NCBI RefSeq assembly: GCF_040954835.1
Contig: NC_090718.1
Coordinates: 15,329,532-15,393,531 of the forward strand
Direction: 5' to 3'
Length of the DNA: 64,000 nucleotides
Origin: Lepisosteus oculatus
Taxonomy: Eukaryota > Chordata > Actinopteri > Semionotiformes > Lepisosteidae
Position 1 is the first letter of the stretch. Each line of letters opens with the position of its first letter. A program made the translations under genes and the position numbers. Under the pieces are notes generated by a model. That model was not told the origin of the DNA and ran no database searches. It saw only the letters and a list, made by a program, of their open reading frames with translations. Positions 6,904 through 63,600 of this stretch are shown in pieces.

Positions 6904-7092
6904 CAGATTGTCACGGTGAAGGTGGGGGTACACTACCAGCCCAGGCCGGAGGTGGGGGTACCCTACCAGCCCAGGCCGGAGGACCGCCAGATTGTCACGG
7001 TGAAGGTGGGGGTACCCTACCAGCCCAGGCCGGAGGACCGCCAGATTGTCATGGTGAAGGTGGGGGTACCCTACCAGCCCAGGCCGGAGGAC
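6904..7092. repeat. 54-bp minisatellite in DIXDC1 intron 5
   Basis: Three units of 54 bp plus a partial unit, each with attgtcacggtgaaggtggg and taccagcccaggccggagga. Identity between units is nearly complete, so the array is young. It starts about 110 bp from exon 5 (7201-7320). The unit is a multiple of three and open on the plus strand, but nothing supports coding. Confidence 0.9.
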
Positions 7093-7200
7093 CCAGGATC
7101 ACTAAATTATTTTGGAATCGCCCACAGTGTGCTTTTCACATCTGACCCGGGCCGGCCCGTCAGGCCCAGGGCGGCGCGACAGAGCGGAGGGAGCTCTCAC

Positions 7201-21079: not shown

Positions 21080-21509
21080 TCACACTCCTATAGCTCTTTT
21101 CTGGACCCTCCACTCAGAGCTCTTTACAGGTCATGGGGATCCCCTCCACCCCCACCAGTGTGTACCCCCACCTGGATGATGCTCCAGTCCTCTCCCCACA
21201 CACCAGCTCTCAGTGGGGAGGAGAGCAGAGTGATGAGGCCAGTTCAGAGATGGGGATTATTAGGAAGTTAAGATGGGTAAAGACCAGGGATGGGTGCCTT
21301 TTTACAGTATAGTGTCCCCGTCACTATACTGGGGCATGAGGACCCACACAGACCACAGGGTGAGCGCCCCCTGCTGGCCCCACTGACACCTCTTCCAGCA
21401 GCAGCCTCAGCTCTCCCAGGAGTCTCCCATCCAGGTACTGGTCAGGCTCACACTGCTGAGCTCCAGTGGGGCTGCCAGCTGGGAGCTGCAGGGTGATATA
21501 GGTGCTGGC
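21080..21509 (-). mobile_element. SINE3 copy (5S rRNA-derived), internally deleted
   Basis: Both the 5S-like head (21400-21509 on the minus strand) and the 3' end (21080-21140) are present, but about 130 bp of the body around 21290 is missing compared with the full copies at 14.4 and 62.8 kb. Confidence 0.85.
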
Positions 21510-26780: not shown

Positions 26781-27115
26781 AGCTGAATATGGCGTAATGG
26801 CAGGGGGGTGTTGAATCAGACACACCTGGGCATTGGTAGGTATGAAGTTGTTGAAAATTCTAGTAAAAACTTGGATAATCGCCTAAATCTGCTTCCACTC
26901 ATAGTCTTCTGTGTTTAAAGATTTAAAAAATGTTAATTTTTGGCCTGCCATTGTAAAACATTCCCTTCAGCCTACAAATGTATGTGATTGATTCCAGAGC
27001 AGGAGTGTTCTTTTTTGTAATGCTGTGACCACAGTTTACACAGTACTCTGAATGAGCCCCTGCTAGTGTGGCTCAGAGGAGCACTACATTTCTGCAGGTG
27101 CACATGAGGCCAGAT

Positions 27116-27260
27116 CAGTGGACAGTGAGTCTGGTCTGATCAGTGGGCAGTGAGTCTGGTCTGATCAGTGGGCAGTGAGTCTGGTCTGATCAGTGGGCAG
27201 TGAGTCTGGTCTGATCAGTGGGCAGTGAGTCTGGTCTGATCAGTGGATAGTGATTCAGAC
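27116..27260. repeat. 25-bp minisatellite, about six units
   Basis: Units gtgagtctggtctgatcagt plus gggca repeat with almost no divergence, the last one degenerate. Each unit has a TGATCA palindrome and a GTGAGT. Confidence 0.92.
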
Positions 27261-43433: not shown

Positions 43434-46177
43434 CTTCAGCCGCGTCTGCAGAGTGAGGACAGGAGGGGAGAGGAGGGGAGAGGAGGAGCTGGGCGGCAGG
43501 AAACGTGGCACCAGGTCAGTCCCCTTCACACGCAGCTTAGAGCAAAACACCCTGCAGAAAACAGGAAGTGGAGCTCTGAGGGAGACGGGGAAAACAAGCT
43601 CTCCTCTGTACTCAGGACCACAGAGACACCTCCGCTGACCTCCATGGCTACCTCTGCACATTCGGCCCTTGTCTCCAAACCAGGAAGCACGTCAGGCTCT
43701 GGAGCTCTCGGATGGCCAGGGGGAGGAGGCTCAGGAATTCACAGGCTCCTTTGCCTTAAGTAGTGAGCTCTGCCAAAGGCACAATAATCGTGTCCTCTTG
43801 TTTTGGCTAAGTGTGCCCACGGGTTTTGTGTTATATATTTCTGCGTGCTGCATTGGTGTTATATACTGTAATTGTGTGGCTTTGCTGTCTCTTGTCGTGT
43901 CTGGGAAGAAACTCTTCCTCTTGTTTGTGCAGCAGAGGTACACCATGTGCCCTGCTCCTGCAGAGTGGAGGCCGGTGTTCAGTATGAAATGAGCAGGCCA
44001 GGTGATGCAAACTGGGCACCAGCCTCAAAGACCTGCTTGGTTCCTGCAAGACACGGGCTGAATCCTACCAAGATCCAGGTCCGAGGTCTTAAAGACTGCT
44101 GTAGGGCACAGCAGGCCTGGGTTTTCTCCTGTGAAAGCAAGGCCTTCCTTGTGGCCAGGGCAAGGGATCGAGGCAGAGCCAGGCCCCACCCCCTCCTGTG
44201 AAAGCAGGGAACAGGGGCGTCTGTCCTGACTACAGTCCTGCTGTGCTATACCGCAGTACAAGCAGAGGGGCGTGTAGCGGCAGTGATGGTCTGGGAGAGT
44301 GTTGGAGCAGAGTGGTAGAAAGAGCACAGCAGTGCCCTTGAGAAGGAGACAGGTGGGATTTTACTAGGGCAGCAGGGAGCACGAGAGAGGAAGAGAGGTC
44401 TTCTTATTAAACACAGCTTGAACTGGTGTAGGCATCTGAAATTCCATCGAAATGCAGCCGGAATGACAGGTGTAACAGGTATGGCTAATATTAAATCAGT
44501 GTAAGAGTATGGATCATTGTTAGGTGTTAGTGAGGCCAGTAGGGGGCGCTCACCCTGCAGTCTGTGTGGGTCCTAAAGCCCCAGTATAGTGACGGGGACA
44601 CTATACTGTAAAAAGGCGCTGTCCTTTGGATGAAACAATAAAAACTAGGTCCTGACTCTCTGTGGTCAATCCCAGGGAGTTTCTCAAAAAGAGTAGGGGT
44701 GTTACCCCAGTATCCTGGCCAAATTTCCCCCTGGCCTTTCCCAATCATGGCCTCCTAATAATCCCCATCTCTGAACTGGCCTCATCACTCTGCTCTCCTC
44801 CCCACTGAGAGCTGGTGTGTGGGGAGCGGACTGGAGCATCATCCAGGTGGGGGTACACACTGGTGGGGGTGGAGGGGATCCCCATGACCTGTAAAGAGCT
44901 TTGAGTGGAGAGTCCAGAAAAGCGCTATATAAATGTAAGGAATTATTGTTTTCCCCTTCAATGATTACAGACTCAATTGGATAAATCAATTCCAATAATA
45001 AATTCGATCTGTCTCTTTAAAGGTGGCAAGCTGCTGTTCGTGAGATGGACTGCAGCGGTCAGTCACGACGCCCTGCGTTTGGTAGAGTTCGGGCGCATGA
45101 CTGATAGCAGGCAAATCAATGACAGCGAGCAGCAGGTTAGAGTGATCAATCGCGCATCGAGTAATCCAATTAAAAGTCCCGCCTTTCGCCGATTCTCCCG
45201 CATCTCATTGGCGGAAGGGAGTGTCAATTTCTATGTCCCGCCCCCGGTGTGTCGCAGTACAGTCGTCCGGCGTGGAAACACGCGTGGGCGGAACACTTTG
45301 TAAACTGTGTTTTCTAAGCGCTTTTTGTTGCACAACTTCTAAATAACCGCCCGGTCGTCTGGAAACAAAACGAATTTGTAATATAATATCTATCAACAGC
45401 AAATACATTGTCCTGTTTATACTCTAGTCGTGTATGAGTTCACCGTGTGGTTTCCTTCAGGGAGTTGTAAACCGGAGCTCCCATAGCGAATTATTTTTTT
45501 TTTTACTGACGCTCTTATGTACCTTTGATAACAGTGTTTATTTAGTGAGCTATGGTGAGCTACTGCGGTAAGAAAGAAACTATGTTAAAATCGAGTTTCT
45601 CAGGAGTGGCGTTTCATTCATTTGCAGTGGTGAAGGTGCTGTATCTGTGTCTTCTCTGCTGTTAGGAAATTCCCTCGGGAGATACAGCGAGCCCAGTTGC
45701 TCGACAGACGTGCTGGAAACTCACGGGAAGCGGAGCGGCGGAATCTACAGTCCTATCAATATCTAGATAAACCTATATTATTCTTCCAGCGTGAGTTGTC
45801 TCATTACTTGGCCTCACTTTCAACTGCGTTGGAAGAGAGGAGATTTTAATTTAGGTAATTAACGTGTTAAGTGCCTTGGCACCGGCGTGTTTCAGTATTG
45901 ATAACCACAGCGATTAGAGTGTAATTTTCTAAATTACCAACTGGATTTACCAAATGGCGCGCGTATTACTTACATTTAAGCTATTAGTTTAAATACATAA
46001 GGGTAATGTAATATAAACTAATGTTAAGCATGAATAACTTTTAACGGGGGGGTGTGAAGTGCAGTATCTGATATTCTTGGTTCTTCTCTAAAAGTGTGAC
46101 AGATCGTAGTGTGTGTCACCAGCGATGGGCTCGGTTTGTACATTATAGAGATGTAACATGTTGCTCTGTTTCTCCAG
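43434..46177. other. MIA-FDXACB1 divergent intergenic region
   Basis: Contains a SINE3 copy (44526-44949). The stretch 45.0-45.3 kb has ATTGG boxes and a CCCGCCCCC GC box within CpG-rich DNA, a plausible FDXACB1 promoter. A run of short low-complexity DNA at 45.5 kb carries nothing else. The MIA upstream side has no TATA box that I can see. Confidence 0.5.
44526..44949 (+). mobile_element. SINE3 copy, 5'-truncated
   Basis: Starts within the body (ggggcgctcaccctgcagtc) and runs through the shared segments to gtccagaaaagcgctatata and ggaattattg. The 5S-like head is missing. Confidence 0.85.
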
Positions 46178-46739: not shown

Positions 46740-49700
46740 TTTACACAGAACTGAGGCCTGTCCGGTGTTGCCCTTGTATATTTGATTTAAATATAAGATC
46801 CAAATAAAAAAGGAATCGTCGTGGTATCGGATCCTTAAGGCACGTGGGGAACGGGCTTGTGCTCAGGAGGAGTTCTGCTCTGGAGCCTCTGTGCCTCGGT
46901 CTGAGAATGTGTGAGGAGGAGGAGCTGGTCGTCCCGCCTCTCGCCGAGGCGACCGCGTGTGGAGCTCAGCGCATGTCCGTCTCCGCAGGCAGCGCTGCGG
47001 TGCGGGACCCCCAGGACGTGCTGCTGCTCGGCGAGGGCAACTTCTCCTTCGCTGCCGCCCTGTGCCAGGCCGGCGGGGGCAGCCCCAGGGTCACCGCCAC
47101 CTGCTACCAGGCCGAGGAGGCGGTCCTGCAGCAGGAGGGCGCGGAGGAGAACATCCAGCTCCTCCGAGAGCATGGTGAGGACTGGCCCACACACACGCTT
47201 ACACGCACGCACACACACAGGCCACCTGCCTCGTCGCCCTCCGCAGTGACGTCAGCGAGTGGGACTAGACGTTGCTCCGCCCACCTCTGACGTGGCTCCA
47301 GAACAGGGGTTCCCAGCTCCGAACCCCGGGGTCTGCAGTCCGGCGGGGTGTCTGTATCTCCTTGTAGCTCTAGCTGCTGGAGGCTGTGCAGAAGGGATGA
47401 ACTGGTCAAGTAAAACCCTAATTGGATCAGTTTCACACTTCTCCCGGGGCGAAGAGCTGTTTATAGCTCCGGGAGACATAGAAAGCCTGCTGGACTCTGG
47501 ACTGGAGTTGGGAACCCATGCTCTTGATCTCTAGATGAACTGGACTCTGGCACAGAGGGACACAGGTCGCATTTACTGGCACTGGTGGCCGATATTAACA
47601 TGCAGCATTATCATTAATACCAGAATTATCGTTGTTTGATTTTACCAGATTTCATCCTGCATTTATTTAGTCTTGTGCTATAAAGGTCCTGGTGCATTGA
47701 AACAGCATTCTTTATTGTTATTCTGCATTTATGTTTTTACTCCTTTTTTTGTTTTAAAAATCGCTTAAAATCACTTTAAAGATCACTTAAAAAATAGATT
47801 TAGAAATTTGTATGGCCACCTGATTCGGGATCGCAGGTTGTGTGTTTTTCACTTCCTGGCTCCCAGCTGTAAACCCTTCAGCCGCACACAGGGGAGAGTG
47901 AGGGGGTGTGGCCAGACTCCTCTGCCCCGCCCTGCCCGCCCCCCCCTCAAGCCACCTATCCACCCATACCGGACGTTTGGTGCTGATTGGTAGAAAGGCG
48001 AGTACGGCAAATGTGCCTCTTTCCTGCTAGTGTCCGAGAATCCGCAGGGGTCGCTGTGCCTAGGCTGACTACTCACACCCTAGTCCCTGGATTCCTTTCC
48101 TCTGGGAATCTTGATCCCAGCTGTCCAGTAATGTGAGACCTAGGCTCAAACTCCTGATCATGGAGTTCGCCCTGCGCTTGGCTGAAACCCCTCCGTTCCG
48201 CTCTGGCGTTTGTGCGCATGGCTGATCGTTTGGTGTGCGCGATTGCATTGCCCAGCTCCAGCTTGAGCTGGCTTTGCCCACCAGCTGGTGTTGGTGCCAG
48301 GAAGCACAGTCGATTGCCAGCATGTGGGAGGACTGGTGCAGCACGATAGGAACCGTGGGAGGCATGGCTCAGTGAGCGCAGGGACGGGAAAGATGGGGCT
48401 CCGCGGGGGACAAGGTGGCAGCAGGGCAGCGGGGTGACTGGCAGGGGGTGTCAGCTGTTTCGTTGTGGGCACTCAGGGGCGGAGGTGCATTTCGCAGTGG
48501 ACAGCACCCGGCTGGGGGAGTGCCCGGCGCTGGCGGGGCAGCTCTTCGACCACATCATCTTCAACTTCCCCCACTGCGGCAGGAAGGCGGGCGTGAAGAG
48601 GAACCGCAGCCTGCTGGCCAAGTTCTTCCTCAGGTGAGCCCTACCGGAACCCGTGGGGCGGAGCAGAAAGGTGCAGCCACAGGGCCGGGGAGTTTGTAAG
48701 TTGTGTTCCCTTTGCCGTCAGGCTCCGCAGGATGTACATTCCTACCACTTCACCTCCAGAAGGGAAAACTGTGTTTCAGTGTCGTGTCACGGAGTTTTCT
48801 GCATTTCTGACAGTTACAGTTCCTTTCTAATTGGCGTTTCTTTGCGTTAGCTTTCAATTCAGTGAATTTTGTATATAGCGCCTTTCACAACAAGGTTGCC
48901 CCAAGGCGCTTTACAAAGTAAGTGACCTTACATGTTGTGAATACAGAACAGAAAAGACCAGAAGGCAACGGAGGAGAGGAACCAAAAACTCCTTAGTAAG
49001 GAGAAAAGAAACCTCTAGGGGTCCAAGGTCAACTGTCTGCCCAACCCCTCTGCTAACATTATACAATTAAAAAAGGAAAAACTAATTATTAATACATGGA
49101 GGTATTAATACATCCATCATGTCTTCTGTGTGTTAGTACTCCATGCAGATCTCTGTAGACCAGTAAATTCCTCTTAAACGATAGCTATATCCACAATGTC
49201 CCTCTTGGATCCAGGGCAGTGATGCAGCATCCAACTCAGATGATGCCCAGCCCAGGCGCCATCTGGACATGTGGGGAGGAGAATAGGATAGTCTGGTCAG
49301 AACAGATGTATCTGCCTGGTGGGCCAAGATAGAGATACACAATGGCATGTACAGCCTGACGGGAAGCCAATGGAAAGAGTTAAGTATGGGGGTTGTATGG
49401 TCGTACTTTCTGCTCCTGGTAACAATTCTAGCTGCTGCATTCTGAATTCGCAGTAAGGTGTTGAAAGGGTGATGGGTGCTCCAAACAGCTGTCAAACTGA
49501 GCACCCTGAAGCAGCTCTGTCTGACTGGTTGACGACAGTGTATATTCAAGCGGGACTCTTGTCCTCTCCAGCTGTGCCCAGGTGCTGAAGGACAGCGGCG
49601 AGGTCCACGTGACTCTGTGCAACGGGCAGGGGGGCACGCCCGCTGACCAGCCAATGAGAGAGTGGCACAACAGCTGGCAGGCCGTTGCCATGGCTGCGGA

Positions 49701-50934: not shown

Positions 50935-52441
50935 GCACCCTTCACCTGTTTTCCAAGCCTCTGCTTATTTCCTGGCCTGCTGGCTCTCCAGCAGTCCTGC
51001 TCCAGGGGTGCGATAAGAGTCACCACACTAAGCTCTCTGAGGTCAACTCAAGTGCAAAGGTCCTGTGCACTTCCTTATTTGTGTTGATTTGAATGGTAAT
51101 GTGAAAAAAAAGACCTTATATGTTATATCACGTTAATCATTATATTGCTACTCTGGGCAAAGGTGAGCTGGCTCCTGCAAAGAGATGGCACAGATCTTCC
51201 CTTACAGCCATCATCCTTCATCGCAGATCCCTGTCACACTTCCCCATCCCATACGTACCGTCGCTCAGCGGGGGATCTGTATCTATCTGTTCCTCTTCCG
51301 TCAAGAGGCGCTGCCTGAGAGAGAATTCATGAGACACAAAAACGGTTCTCTTCTTCCCAGGAATGTCTTGGGCCAGAACTCCTCGCACCCCGTGCGCATC
51401 CTCCTGGATCTGCTCCTCAGGGAGCTGCGCTCTCCCTGGCCCGTGCAGAGGCTCGAGAGCGACTTCCCGGAGCTCTTCCGCGCCTGTCCGGGCCTGCTCT
51501 CCGACTGCGGGCCCGACGTCAGCCCGGCCCGGGTCTACTGGATCAGACCCACCGAGACGAGGGCGCGGGTGGACGGGGAGGAGGGGGACTCCGCGCCCAA
51601 TGGCCCCCAGGACAGCGAGACCAAGGGGTACGGCCTCCGGCCTTCCCTGCTCCTCCACGCCCGGGAAGTCTGCGGGCACAGGGAATTCCGGGCCGGCACG
51701 CTCCACGCTGTGAGCGGCCTGGTCTTTCGGAGGCTCCCTGTCTCTAAGAGCAGCCCGCCGGCCTTCCACGAGCTCCTCCTGCTGGGGGCGTTCCGAGCGG
51801 ATTCCCGGCCCTGCCAGCTGCTCCGGTGCTGCCTGGAGGCGGCCTTGGGCGCTGCTGACGGGCAGGCTGCCCCCCGAGACCCCGCAGTGCCCGCGGTCTC
51901 CTTCGAGGAGGATACGGGCGGCCCCGCGCCGCAGCTGTGGGTGAATTTCAGGGGCGTCCCCAGAGTGGGGAGGATAGCGGCACTCCCGCCAAGAGGAGAG
52001 CTGTCCCAGGACCTGCAGGTCTGCGCGGCTACTCTCAACCTGGACCTGCTGGCGTGCCAGGTGTTCTCCCTGCCCGACTGGAGGATGCTGTGGAGCGGGG
52101 ATCCCCGCTTCCTAGCGCAGTTCGCCCGGAAGGAGGTCCGGCCCTTCTCCAGCTTCTCCCTCTACCCCCCCTCCTACACGCACGACATCAGCTTCTGGGT
52201 GGAGCCGGAGAGCTTCGACGAGCTGGCGTTCCACGCGTTGGTGCGGCGGGTCTCCGGGGACGCCGTGCGGGATGTGGCTCTGGTCGACCGCTTCCGCCAC
52301 CCCCACATGGGCCACGCCAGCCTCTGCTACAGGCTGACCTACCAGTCCTGCGACCGGGCGCTGTCGTACAGCCAGGCCCTGGGCATGCAGCTGCAGCTGC
52401 GCAGGCTGCTCCCCCTGCAGCTGCAGGTCACGCTGAGATAG
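46178..52441 (+). CDS. FDXACB1: FDXACB1, BMT5-like domain fused to FDX-ACB domain, 6 exons, 598 aa
   Basis: FDXACB1 joins an N-terminal Rossmann-like DUF2431 (Bmt5/25S rRNA methyltransferase-like) domain to a PheRS-like region with the ferredoxin-fold anticodon-binding domain; its activity is not established. Coding segments are 46216-46225 (in exon 46178-46225), 46989-47174, 48477-48633, 49572-49775, 50023-50181 and 51361-52441; phases chain throughout. The first part has DVLLLGEGNFSFAAAL (SAM-binding glycine loop), FDHIIFNFPHCGRKAGVKRN, GQGGTPADQPMREWHNSW and GYRSQDKTFHVEGALTHVFT, all near-identical to human. The end has DWRMLWSGDPRF, SLYPPSYTHDISFWV and LCYRLTYQSCDRALS, the FDX-ACB core. 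Human length is 624. The tiny first coding exon (MDP) is inferred from splice signals; a start at 46974 (MSVSAG) in unspliced exon 2 is the alternative. Intron 3 carries a LINE tail. Confidence 0.93.
46701..46734. repeat. (TG)17 microsatellite in FDXACB1 intron 1
   Basis: Seventeen uninterrupted TG units. Confidence 0.95.
48855..49500 (-). mobile_element. L2-like LINE 3' end in FDXACB1 intron 3
   Basis: On the minus strand the stretch ends with gtaaagcgccttggggcaac, gttgtgaaaggcgctatata and an aattcactgaattg tail, a typical 3' end of L2-type elements in fishes. Upstream of this (49320-49450) lies gcagctagaattgtt and ttccattggcttcccgtc, also part of such 3' regions. No reverse transcriptase is present. 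The insert reaches to within about 70 bp of exon 4. Confidence 0.7.
50545..50934 (+). mobile_element. SINE3 copy with ATT tail in FDXACB1 intron 5
   Basis: 5'-truncated copy starting gctccgtccttcggatgaga and ending gctatataagtgttagcaat followed by about 13 ATT units. It keeps a segment (gcgcactatggctgccgtcg) that is deleted from the other copies here, so it belongs to an older or different subfamily. Confidence 0.88.
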
Positions 52442-56549: not shown

Positions 56550-57370
56550 CTTTATTTCAGTCCTGTTCCTCTACTGTTGTCTTCAGCTTACTAAATGAGT
56601 CCTTGTCTACTGGTGTGATAGCAGTGACCTTTAAAACAGCTGCAGTTACCCCTGTGCAACAAATCTATCTCTGGACAACCTGAATAATGTTAACCCAATA
56701 TCCGGCCCACCCTTGCAAAAATATTGGAACATGCTGTTACAATTCGGTTCATAGACCATGTCATTGCAAATAACCTCTTTGAACTCTTCGGATCTGGTTT
56801 GAGACAACTACCCAGCAGAGAAACGGCTCTGTTTAAAGTCACTAATGATCTTCTTATGGCTTCTGACTCCGGTTCTCTTTCTATCCTCATTCACCTTGAC
56901 CTCACTGCTGCTTTTGACACTGTTAACCGTGACATCTTACTTTCTCAACTTGAGACCGTTTGGGAGTTTCTGACGTTACTCTTAAAGGGGACGTATAGTC
57001 CCAGGTTCTCAGTACCTATCTCAGTTATTATCTCCCTACTCCCCACCTCGCAGCCTCCATTCGTCTGACTCTGGTCTCCTGTACTGTTTGTCCCCCAATC
57101 CCCCACTCTGTGGGTGACAAGGCCTTCTCCTGCTACATCCCCAAACTCTGCAATTCTGTCCTCAAGGATATCAGAGAGTCGCCTTCCCTGAGCGCTTTCA
57201 AATCTAGAATCAAACCCTTTATTAGAGGACTTTCATGTAATCAGTTTGCTTTCCTACTCTATTCCAAACCTTTATTGTAATTGTGTAATTATGGTGTCTC
57301 CTCTTAGTGTGTGTGCAAAGCACTTAAAGAAGCCACTTTTAAAGGCTCTATGTATTATATATAATTATTA
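56550..57370 (+). mobile_element. L2-like LINE, 3' part of ORF2, degraded
   Basis: Plus-strand coding traces in order: LNESLSTGVIAVTFKTAAVT, then ILEHAV and NNLFELFGSG, ETALFKVTNDLLMASDSGSL, LIHLDLTAAFDTVNRDILLS (the reverse transcriptase A box, AAFDTV), then after a large internal deletion GDKAFSCYIPKLCNS and SPSLSAFKSRIKPFI, the C-terminal end. A tail with aaaggctctatgtattata and AT-rich sequence follows. The F/YADD-containing part is missing and the frame shifts, so it is inactive. Confidence 0.85.
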
Positions 57371-57687: not shown

Positions 57688-60600
57688 ATGGCGGCAAGGG
57701 GTCTCCGGCAGAGAGTCAGGCGAGGAAGCAAGCAGGAGGCAAACAGCGGGAGCCCCAAAGTCGGCAGCGACCCCAGGATCAGAGACGAAATCAAAGGATC
57801 GGAGGAGAGTAAAACCTCGGAAACCAGGAATGAGTGAGTGCCGCGATCTCTCGGTCTATGGCATCTCTCTGGCAGTGTCAGCAGCTCGCATCTGCAACTC
57901 CATTTAAGCTACCCGAGCAATCCCACTTCTCCAGTCTCGATTGCGGGTTTAACATTCAGACAACGGCATCACGCCTGACTTAGAGATCGGGCTCCGTGCT
58001 TTCAGGAGGAGACGCTGAATCGTGCTGAACATCTGGAAAAGAAACGCGCACCGCTCGTTTTGGTCTCTTTTCATTCATTGCGAAGCTGCCTCTGCACAAC
58101 ACGTAGCCGCGCACCCGTGCGCTCTGGCAGCCGGGAAGAACACGTCACCCCTGCCGTGCGCGCAGAGGTGTGCAGGTGCTGGCGGTGTCGGGCTGTGAAG
58201 ATCGCGATCAGAGGGTTCCTCCCTGACCCGTGCTTCGGTTCGGTTGATTTGTCGTATGCGCAAGTGCCATGAAATGCTTATTTGCATGTGTGCCCCGATA
58301 CTAAGACGTTAAGGAATCACCAAAACATAAACACAGAAAAGCAGCAACAACAACAAGTTAATAACACCCAAAAAGTCAGACAAGCAGTGTGAGAAGAAAA
58401 AATGAGTAGCTGGTGTGTGGGGAGAGGACTGGAGCATCATCCAGGTGGGGCTGCACACTGGTGGGGGTGGAGGGGATCGCCATGACCTGTAAAGAGCTCT
58501 GAGTGGAGTGTCCAGAAAAGAGCTATAGAAGTGTGAGGAATTATTATTAATTCTTATTAGTTCAGTAATCTGACAGTTTGTGGGAAGAAACTGTCTCTGA
58601 ATCTGGAAGTCCGTGCCTTTATGCTCACTTACCAGAGGGCAGGAGGGAGAAAAGTGAGGAACTGTGACCGTCGGGGGTCCGCGCGGGCTCGTTTCCTCCC
58701 GCCACACCTGGGGAGCCAACCCGGGTCTCCGGCGGAACGCACCAGAGAGCCAGCCGGGGGAGCTAAAGGAGACCTCCCCCAGCCCAGGGCGATGACGTCG
58801 CTGTATCCGAACTAGCTCCGCTACACAAGCAGGCAGGCAGGTCTGCGTATCCTGTCCAGCTGTGCGGCGAGTGAATTAAGAGAGGGAGGTGTAGCACAGC
58901 ACACAGAAGCAGTGGTACAAGTCTGTCGAGGGGCGCTGTCAATCTGGGGCACACCAGGGTGCCGAGGGAGAACTGCGGAGATCGGTGGGCCTGTCCTCAC
59001 CCCCGAGCTGCCCCGGCCAGTGTGCGTGAGCTCCTGGGGTACTAGTGCAAGTTCCAGGCCTGTGGCAGTCGCCTCACTAGGATACAATCACAGGTCTTGT
59101 AACACTCTGTGCCTGCTGGTCCCCTGCGCCGCGTCTGTCCCTTTCACCCGTCTCTCTGTGTCTCCCCCTCCTGCAGGGGCTCCAGCAGGGCGGGGCAGGT
59201 GTGGGCGCCCGAGGGCTCCACGGCCTTCAAGTGCCTGGTCTCCGCCCGCTTCTGCGCCGCGCTGCTCAGCAACATCTCCGACTGCGACGAGACCTTCAAC
59301 TACTGGGAGCCCGTGGGTACCGCCACCCCGCCGCAGGGCTCCTGACTCCTGCTGCCTGCCCCTGGCTCTCACAGGGCGGGGCGTCCTGCCTCGGACACGC
59401 TCACGCCGGCTCACGACGGCTCGCGCCAACTCACGCCAACTCACGCCAACTCACGCCAACTCACGACGGCTCACACCAGTTCACGACGGCTCACACCAGT
59501 TCACGACGGCTCACACCAGTTCACGACAGCTCACGCCGGCTCACATCGGTTCACGCCGGCTCACGACAGCTCAGACCATCAATTTAAACTACCTAGATTC
59601 AAGTGCAGTAGAAATAAGTTCTCCTTTAGAATCTTTTATTCCCAAGGCTATTAACCTGCTTAATGTGAACAATTGATTGTATATTTTATTGCATTTATGT
59701 TTATTTTCTTTCTTTTTCATCATACATGTAATGTATTATTTGTTAATGTGTTCATGTTGTGTTAACTGTATTGTGCATTGTGTTTACCTACCTGCAAAGC
59801 AAATTTCCCATCTGGGACACTAAAAGGAAGTACAGTGCAGTAAGTCATGTGTCTCCTCCCTCCTAGACCCACTTCCTGCTGTACGGGAAGGGCATGCAGA
59901 CCTGGGAGTACTCGCCCACGTACGCCATCCGCTCCTACGCCTACCTGTGGCTCCACGCCCTCCCGGCCTGCTTCCACGCCAGGATCCTGCAGACCAACAA
60001 GGTGAGCGCCCCCTGCAGGCCCACAGGGTGAGAGGCTCATATAGACCAACAGGTGAGCGCCCCCTGCAGGCCCACAGGGTGAGAGGCCCATAAAGACCAA
60101 CAGGTGAGCGCCCCCTGCAGGCCCACAGGGTGAGAGGCCCATTAAGACCAACAGGTGAGCGCCCCCTGCAGGCCCACAGGGTGAGAGGCTCATATAGACC
60201 AACAGGTGAGCGCCCCCTGCAGGCCCACAGGGTGAGAGGCCCATTAAGACCAACAGGTGAGCGCCCCCTGCAGGCCCACAGGGTGAGAGGCTCATATAGA
60301 CCAACAGGTGAGCGCCCCCTGCAGGCCCACAGGGTGAGAGGCCCATAAAGACCAACAGGTGAGCGCCCCCTGCAGGGCAACAGGGTCAGAGGCCCATAAA
60401 GACCAACAGGTGAGCGCCCCCTGCAGGGCAACAGGGTGAGTGGCTCACAGGGCAGCAGAGAGGACACCGTGTTGCACCAGGAGCTCAGGCTCTCCCCCTT
60501 GCTGTGGCCCTCACGGTGTCTCTCGCTCTGGAGCCCAGATCCCCCTCCCAGCTGTCCCCGACGGATCCGGCGCCCCCTGCAGGTCGGGTCTCGGGAGAGG

Positions 60601-63600
60601 CCGGGCTCCGGCTCCAGAGACTCCCCCTCCCCTGCCTCCCTCTGACAGTCCGCTCTGCTCCCTTCGCAGGTCCTGGTCTTCTACTTCCTGCGCTGCCTGC
60701 TGGCCTTCGCCTGCTGCGTCTGTGAGCTCTACTTCTACAAGTCAGTGAGGACCCCCGTCACACCCCCCCACTACACCACTGAACACAGGAATGGTCACAC
60801 ACGAGCTGGTCCGGCTGGTGCCCGGCAGCGAGTCGATCCCAGCTGGGTCTTCAAGGGAACTGCAGTCCCAGTTTCTCAGACCGGTTCTCCAATCTCGGTC
60901 ACAAAATAAACCACAAATCATAAATGACGAATTTCAAATCAATCGCAAAATCTTAAGCTTTGCGAGAGCGTTGTGAGTCACCATGTTGTCGGAAAGCTCA
61001 CCACGGTCTCGCCACGGGTGAGAGTGAGTTTGTGAGAATTGTGACAAGAGGCGGCCCTTCCTGCTCACTAGTCCCTGCACTGAATGATGTGATGGGATGG
61101 ACGAGTGAATATGTACAGGTTGTGCAGCAGAAATGTTCAAACATGAGTTAACAAGTAGTATTTGTTAGCAAGCCTGTCTCGAAATCAAAAACAATATTTC
61201 AATTCAATTAAACTTTATTTGTCATTATAGGGGTGCAAAGTAAAGTGAAAAGTGTTTCTCATTAGTCTCTCGGGTGCAGTATATAAATAGATCAGAAGAC
61301 AAGACAATAGACAGTAACACAATAACAATGACAATGTAAACAACAGTATGATGCCAGTGCAAAATCGTCAAAAACTGCAAATACGCAAACGGAGAAAAGT
61401 ATACAAACAGGACAAAAACAGTGCAAAAGTAGTTCGGGGAACAGTGCAAAAATAATAGGGTTAGAGTTAATAAATAGTCCAACTCAACTAGTACAGTTTT
61501 AAGCACAATTTCAGCTTACAGTACATTGAGTTGTCATGTATGTAGTGGTGTAGGAGCACAGTCATTGTGGGTACAGGAAGAAGAGAGGAGAGATCAGAGT
61601 ATGATGGGAGGGAGTGGGGGCGTCACTAAAGAGGGCTAATAAAGTGATCTTATCTCTTCTTCTTGGGTTCTCTTGTGTCCTTTGACGTGTATTTCGCTGT
61701 TGGTCTTGAAGGCCTCCACGTTGGTCAGGCCCCTGGGCGAGCAGCTGCCCTCTGCCCTGCCCCTGCAGGCCCTCACCCTATGCCCTGTGTTCTGTGTGCC
61801 GCAGGGCCGTGTGCAAGAAGTTCGGGCTCCACGTGGGCCGCCTCATGCTGGCGTTTCTGGTGCTGAGCGCGGGGATGTTCTGCTCGGCCGCAGGTAGGGC
61901 GTGGCTGGTCTCGTCTGGGGGGAGGGTGGGGGTGGGCCGGGCCGATGCCCCCAGCGCTGAAGCTGGTCAGCCAGCCCGTGGCCAACACCCGGCACGAAAC
62001 CGAGCCCTCACAAACACGGCAGTATCTGTCGTCCTCGGGAGCTCATCCTGGTTTATTTTTTGCTCTTTGACCCGCAAAGCTTTGTGCTGCTCAGCTCCCT
62101 GAGCTAAACCCGAGTTAGCCGGTGCCCAGTGTTCAGAGTCATCACGAGATCCTGTGGGGGAGCTGTCCTGGCTCTCGCTCTCTGCCAGGACGCCCTGCTT
62201 TCAGGTCGTGTTTTTCAGAAATGTGCCGGAATCGTTGCCTCTTTCCTCTCTCTGTCTGGATGCTGAGCTGCAGGCTGACTTGTGCGCTCTTGTCTGGTCT
62301 CTGTGTCCCCAGCCTACCTGCCGAGCAGCTTCTGCATGTACTGCACCCTGGTGGCCATGACAGGCTGGTTCCAGGACCGGCCGGGGGTGGCCGTGCTGGG
62401 GGTGGCCGCCGGGGCCCTCGTGGGGTGGCCCTTCAGTGCCCTGCTGGGGTGAGTGTACCGGCCTGCACTGGCACTGTCGCTGGGGGGGCCAGACTGGGTC
62501 TCCCAAGAAGCACATGGACACACACACAGACAGGAAGCCCCCAGTCGCTGAACTTCCAGATGGTGATAAACCCCGTTGATCCGCAGTCTGACGCCCTGTC
62601 TGCTGGGTGTGGCCCCATGGAGATTTGGAGAGCGAGAGTTTTAAGGTTTGGGATGGACGTTGGGGAAACGGGGAATGAAGGGACCCTGATCTTGAGCCTG
62701 TTACCCTGCAGACGGAGTGAGAACCCCAGCTGTCTCCCCTGGCTGCTCATCACAAATTCCGTGTGGAACGTTTTAATAATAACTCCTTACTCTTATAGCG
62801 CGCTTTTCTGGACCGTCCACTCAGAGCTCTTTACAGGTCATGGGGATCCCCTCCACCCCCACCAGTGTGTACCCCCACCTGGATGATGCTCCAGTCCTCT
62901 CCCCACACACCAGCTCTCAGTGGGGAGGAGAGCAGAGTGATGAGGCCAGTTCAGAGACGGGGGTTATTAGGAGGCCATGATGGGTAAAGGCCGATGGGGA
63001 AATTTGGCCAGGACACTGGGGTAACACCCCTACTCTTTTCGAGAAACACCCCGGGATTGTTAATGACCTCAGAGAGTCAGGACCTCGGTTTTATGTCTCA
63101 TCTGAAGGACGGCGCCTGTTTACAGTATAGTGTCCCCATCACTGTACTGGGGCATTAGGACCCACACAGACCCCAGGGTGAGCGCCCCCTACTGGCCCCA
63201 CTGACACCTCTTCCAGCAGCAGCCTCAGCTCTCCCAGGAGTGACCCCTCCAGGCGCTGGCCAGGCTCACACTGCTGGGCTCCAGGGGGGCTGCCAGCTGG
63301 GAGCTGCGGGGTGATAGGGCTGCTGGCACATTCTTTCTTATTGAAGACGATCAGTTCGCCCACAGCAAAAAGTTAAAAACACTGCAGCAGTCTGGGCTTG
63401 AGCACATCAAGGGTGGCAGGCAAGAGGGGGTTGGGGGAGTCTGGAGCCCCCCTCCTGGCCGTGTGGGGTGGGCCCCGAGAGAGAGCTGCCCTCGCTGGGC
63501 TGGGCACACCGACTGGACAGAAGGAGCTCCCCCTGGCCGCGACCTTTGACCCCGGTCCCTCCTGTCCCCCCCAGGCTCCCCATCGCCTTCGACCTGCTGC

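Follow-up and report, generated by a model that had tools for sequence, protein, structure and literature searches.

A tandem array of 51-bp units lies directly behind exon 3 of ALG9 in Lepisosteus oculatus and repeats the splice donor of that exon in unit after unit, which raises the question of which donor the gene uses and whether the length of the array matters to it. We analyzed the stretch of 64,000 nucleotides that contains the array (hereafter the window). ALG9 is an essential gene. Its identification here, with the exon numbered 3, came from the first-pass annotation and is supported by a Pfam match, a structure match and the gene model. Exon 3 matched PF03901 (Alg9-like mannosyltransferase) and the ALG9 chain of PDB 9s6s, which we take to be human and which aligned up to the final residues ILQTNK of the exon (Table 1). 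When joined, the eight exons in the window encode an uninterrupted 298 amino acids that align collinearly with that chain over its residues 7-304 (E 2.5e-149); this model covers the exons within the 64 kb, and later exons lie beyond the window. Because the joined protein is collinear with ALG9, a donor at 60002 and a start of exon 4 at 60670 both fit; exon 4 by itself scored below the curated cut-off of PF03901 (15.4 versus 23.8 bits). With 298 codons open over eight exons, the gene looks intact.

Other features were noted elsewhere in the window. Open frames at 46808-47287 and 51167-52438 contain BMT5-like and FDX-ACB domains, a combination that presumably marks FDXACB1, which we take to be the upstream neighbor of ALG9. 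Another open frame, at 56694-57068, looks by eye like part of the reverse transcriptase of a non-LTR retrotransposon.

Table 1. Features of the exon 3 to exon 4 region of ALG9, in window coordinates; a slash marks the boundary at which a donor would be cut.
Feature	Positions	Strand	Basis or remark
ALG9 exon 3, 135 nt, THFLLYG...ILQTNK	59867..60001	+	PF03901 E 4.5e-13; PDB 9s6s ALG9 E 6.8e-20; gene model
Final 11 bases of exon 3, AGACCAACAAG, kin to repeat tail AGACCAACAG	59991..60001	+	One A more in exon
True exon 3 donor, AAG/GTGAGC	60002..60007	+	Generic matrix, U1 pairing, gene model
Tandem array of 51-bp units, eight full and the ninth partial; seven columns vary	60002..60443	+	TRF, repeat search, register layout
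Nine CTCF-like cores, CCTGCAGGGGGCGC, one per unit	60006..60427	-	Generic consensus and matrix
Second donor-like series, AGG/GTGAGA or AGG/GTGAGT, eight sites, mid-unit	60028..60441	+	Generic matrix
In-frame TGA, codon 10 of first intronic unit	60029..60031	+	Translation
Eight decoy donors, CAG/GTGAGC, 51-bp steps	60053..60415	+	Register layout, motif count, matrix
Tenth CTCF-like core, in intron 3 past the array; perhaps a relic unit	60570..60583	-	Motif, generic matrix
ALG9 exon 4, 71 nt, weak donor CAA/GTCAGT	60670..60740	+	Gene model; fits joined protein

The array was reported by TRF at 59991-60444 (period 51, 8.9 copies, 95% matches, 0% indels, score 801), and a separate repeat search found a spacing of 51 eight times in succession (family D1). 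It makes up 66% of the 668-nt intron 3. Read in register from 60002, the units begin with GTGAGCGCCCCCTGCAGG; these first 18 bases are invariant, and seven other columns vary, giving unit types in the order A B C A C A B D, followed by the partial unit. This order gave no significant sign of multi-unit duplication (chance 0.15 and 0.08). Aligning the two halves of the unit gave a score equaled by 5 of 500 shuffles, which is no more than suggestive of a unit that arose when a half-unit of about 25 bp was doubled. The unit had been proposed to start in the last bases of exon 3. The array does cover the exon tail and its donor, but the tail AGACCAACAAG has one A more than the repeat AGACCAACAG, making it a one-base-different relative and not an exact copy; either the exon was copied inexactly, or a single base has since been lost or gained. 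A search of the 1.2-Gb assembly, in which simple repeats and very frequent words are ignored, matched the array DNA at one place, its own. The copy number given here is that of one assembly and one array length, and the array is a candidate VNTR.

Tandem repeats are frequent in the window (67 TRF rows, some overlapping). Intron 2 of ALG9 holds a minisatellite of 10/20-bp units (GCTCACGCCA) at 59399-59573, starting 87 bases past the end of exon 2 at 59312. Another array, at 27113-27253 (25-bp unit, 5.6 copies), has a donor-like CA/GTGAGT in most units; by eye, no exon boundary was recognized there or at the array at 6950-7093.

The first-pass annotation described eight near-identical decoy donors following the true one. 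Eight copies of CAG/GTGAGC indeed stand at exact 51-bp steps (GT at 60053, 60104, 60155, 60206, 60257, 60308, 60359 and 60410), but the count was low by half, because a second donor-like series occupies eight of the nine mid-unit positions (60028, 60079, 60130, 60181, 60232, 60283, 60334 and 60436) and brings the decoys to about 16. The ninth mid-unit position, 60385, reads AGG/GTCAGA and fell under the listing threshold. The window has 12 occurrences of MAGGTGAGC, nine of them in the array, compared with a mean of 2.17 and a maximum of 7 in 100 dinucleotide shuffles. Scored with a generic 5′ splice site matrix, the true donor reached 11.05, the eight main-series decoys 11.21 and the second series 8.4-10.0; predicted pairing with the U1 5′ end gave -9.6 kcal/mol for the true donor and -11.6 kcal/mol for the main-series decoys. 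Of the eight ALG9 donors that the window contains, that of exon 3 ranked first by this matrix and third by U1 energy, where the donors of exons 5 and 6 surpassed it. The exon 4 donor scored 5.24 by the same matrix, and a further donor-like site, TCA/GTGAGG, lies four bases downstream of it (region 60738-60750). As had been stated, 51 is a multiple of three, so that the main-series decoys keep the frame, and the predicted stop was where the annotation had placed it: reading on past exon 3 gives VSAPCRPTG and then TGA as codon 10. By translation, retention of a unit would thus cause a premature stop, the TGA being included by every main-series decoy. Use of the first second-series site (60028) would add 26 nt and shift the frame.

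At each of three settings, predicted RNA accessibility favored the true donor by 0.2-1.7 kcal/mol over seven of the eight main-series decoys; the sites predicted to be more accessible were one decoy (60359 or 60410, depending on the setting) and, at two settings, 60436. The fold of the whole array had a z score of -1.72, with 4 of 100 shuffles as stable. One unit gave -1.58 and two units -2.47, and two other 51-base frames gave 0.81 and 0.39. With this fold score and an accessibility gain of 0.2-1.7 kcal/mol, RNA structure is a weak candidate for the chief protector of the true donor. No known structured RNA was matched in the 64-kb window (no Rfam match at the gathering score, no tRNA). We also considered recursive splicing, for which a ratchet site is an AG/GT preceded by a pyrimidine tract. 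At a cut-off of 9 pyrimidines in 15, chosen in this analysis, the screen listed seven CCCACAG/GGTGAG sites inside units (10 of 15 pyrimidines) and no CAACAG/GT unit boundary; a ratchet at the AG/GT unit boundaries was rejected, the array's CAACAG/GT boundaries being without a pyrimidine tract by this cut-off.

Minisatellites that copy a donor have precedents. A 1995 paper by Turri, Cuin and Porter is, by its title, about an interferon-induced transcript, said to be human 6-16/IFI6, in which a minisatellite reportedly provides several splice donors; compared by title, it shares with ALG9 the supply of several donors by tandem copies. The closest anatomy is that of the human ABCA7 intron 18 VNTR (De Roeck 2018), which the excerpted report describes as a 25-bp unit directly behind exon 18 that includes the donor (PMC5954066). 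It is polymorphic (about 12 to 427 copies) and disease-linked, and a retained unit shifts the frame and leads to a premature stop (excerpt of PMC5954066). Its consensus unit, GTGAGCCCCCCACCACTCCCTCCCC, starts with GTGAGC and continues with a C run (excerpt of PMC6857246); the ALG9 unit also starts with GTGAGC, and its C run follows after one G. In ALG9, too, the array abuts the exon, the first GT is the exon donor, the units repeat that donor, and a retained unit would bring a premature stop. ALG9 differs in its 51-bp unit, about nine copies and preserved frame, in contrast to the frame-shifting 25-bp unit of ABCA7. In the excerpted ABCA7 results, retention of one unit was about 2%, was subject to nonsense-mediated decay and was independent of VNTR length, whereas longer arrays went with more skipping of the exon that follows and with reduced expression (PMC5954066).

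Other repeats are more distant parallels. The intron 6 VNTR of hTERT, with 38-nt repeats, was reported to be required for an alternative splice form (PMC8150890); it is intronic like the ALG9 array, and donor copies are absent from the excerpted description. The longer the MIR137 VNTR, the larger was the share of transcripts with alternative splicing, but the excerpt of that report gives two alternative donors in the pre-miR-137 sequence and does not locate them within the repeats (PMC6692358). Tandem genomic duplication of AGGT can supply new splice sites and so lead to intron gain (PMC3443670, in excerpt). The full unit boundaries of ALG9 likewise read AG/GT, although the new introns described in that excerpt arose within exons, whereas the ALG9 duplication lies in an existing intron and its boundary AGs are without a clear pyrimidine tract. 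Among the literature matches listed, no ALG9 repeat array was named in titles or abstract starts. As a donor-copying minisatellite has already been published (ABCA7, and the 1995 title), the ALG9 array is a further example and not a new kind.

We consider it probable that the array is a young minisatellite at the ALG9 donor, with 60002 mainly used, the decoys minor, and any effect of length acting through exon 4 or the transcript level. A GC-rich intronic minisatellite would have arisen recently at the donor of exon 3, which it includes, in an ALG9 that is apparently functional. Most transcripts would use the first donor because it is strong in its own right and completes an exon of normal size (135 nt); a few percent may use a decoy, include the TGA and be degraded. 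Copy number would shift by slippage or unequal exchange and be mostly tolerated. Since array length in ABCA7 correlates with skipping of the next exon, exon 4 is by analogy the likeliest place for a length effect, if one is present, through its inclusion or through the transcript level and not through decoy choice; its skipping would cause a frameshift (71 nt). This reading is supported by the array and its donor copies, the open eight-exon frame collinear with ALG9, the top matrix score of the true donor among the eight, its favored predicted accessibility, the weak exon 4 donor and the ABCA7 anatomy. Against it, the roughly 2 kcal/mol better predicted U1 pairing of the decoys would offset or exceed the accessibility edge of 0.2-1.7 kcal/mol, the true donor is third of the eight by U1 energy, one decoy and at two settings 60436 are predicted to be more accessible than it, and downstream donors of equal strength can win. 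Also against it, SRSF1 activates intron-proximal, that is downstream, donors (excerpt of PMC5585400). Dominance of 60002 with a minor truncated by-product is the expected outcome, and the computed strengths alone leave it undecided.

It is rather unlikely, though worth serious consideration, that the minisatellite is neutral, with all splicing from 60002 and ALG9 indifferent to its length. Minisatellites are tolerated in introns, the window has many TRF arrays, including that in intron 2 of ALG9 (59399-59573), and ALG9 is open across the eight exons seen; yet no decoy of the main series scores below the true donor, and the analogous ABCA7 array alters splicing. We regard as improbable the idea of the first-pass annotation that the decoys compete strongly and that the number of copies determines how much of the ALG9 message is truncated. 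About 16 donor-like sites, a main series that is predicted to pair better with U1 than the true donor, and a TGA common to all in-frame main-series products fit this idea, but a strong effect would burden an essential gene. Unit retention in ABCA7, moreover, is unresponsive to length in the excerpted report (PMC5954066).

The units also carry predicted CTCF cores. The consensus core CCWSYAGRKGGCRS was found in tandem in all nine units and again at 60570; its 14 bases are invariant across the nine units, with scores of 17.1-19.0 of a maximum of 25.3 by a generic CTCF matrix. The core occurs 13 times in the window against a shuffle mean of 0.21, and ten of these lie in intron 3, nine of them as repeat copies and therefore not independent matches. 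The cores outside intron 3 are at 21364-21377, 44536-44549 and 63182-63195. Sites scoring above 12 number 28 in the window versus 1-8 in 20 Markov-simulated windows; since 18 of the 28 lie outside intron 3, the window is generally rich in CTCF-like sites. Tested as a possible relic unit, the region at 60570 scored above 500 of 500 mononucleotide shuffles, a test biased because the region was chosen for holding the 14-mer.

It is very improbable that, with a strong U1 site and a CTCF core in each unit, array length governs together how many donors compete and how strongly the polymerase is blocked just past exon 3; if true, the array would be a copy-number rheostat on ALG9 output, working through DNA-bound and RNA-bound factors at once. 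More improbable still is an array of CTCF sites as such, in which nine or ten sites of the same orientation would slow the polymerase or form a boundary and the donor copies would be passengers. The core in every unit and its invariance invite this reading, and in two cell lines the inclusion of alternative exons correlates with CTCF located up to about 1 kb downstream of them (excerpt of PMC8373115). Against it, the putative sites of the array are repeat copies and not independent matches, such sites are common across the window, and recent copying alone suffices for an invariant core; the same excerpt also cites another study whose peak CTCF enrichment lay upstream of alternative exons (PMC8373115). 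An assembly artefact, with a wrong copy number or a false array, is hardly credible, for although a single assembly was used and tandem arrays are often mis-sized in assemblies, the units differ by point variants, the assembly search reported no second copy, and clean ALG9 exons lie on both flanks.

The locus offers a natural competition experiment, in which one true donor faces about 16 decoys in two near-uniform series, and does so within a glycosylation gene that is conserved. Such a locus could show which of exon definition and donor strength is the deciding factor, and how general the ABCA7 pattern is, in which length acts on the next exon and not on decoy choice.
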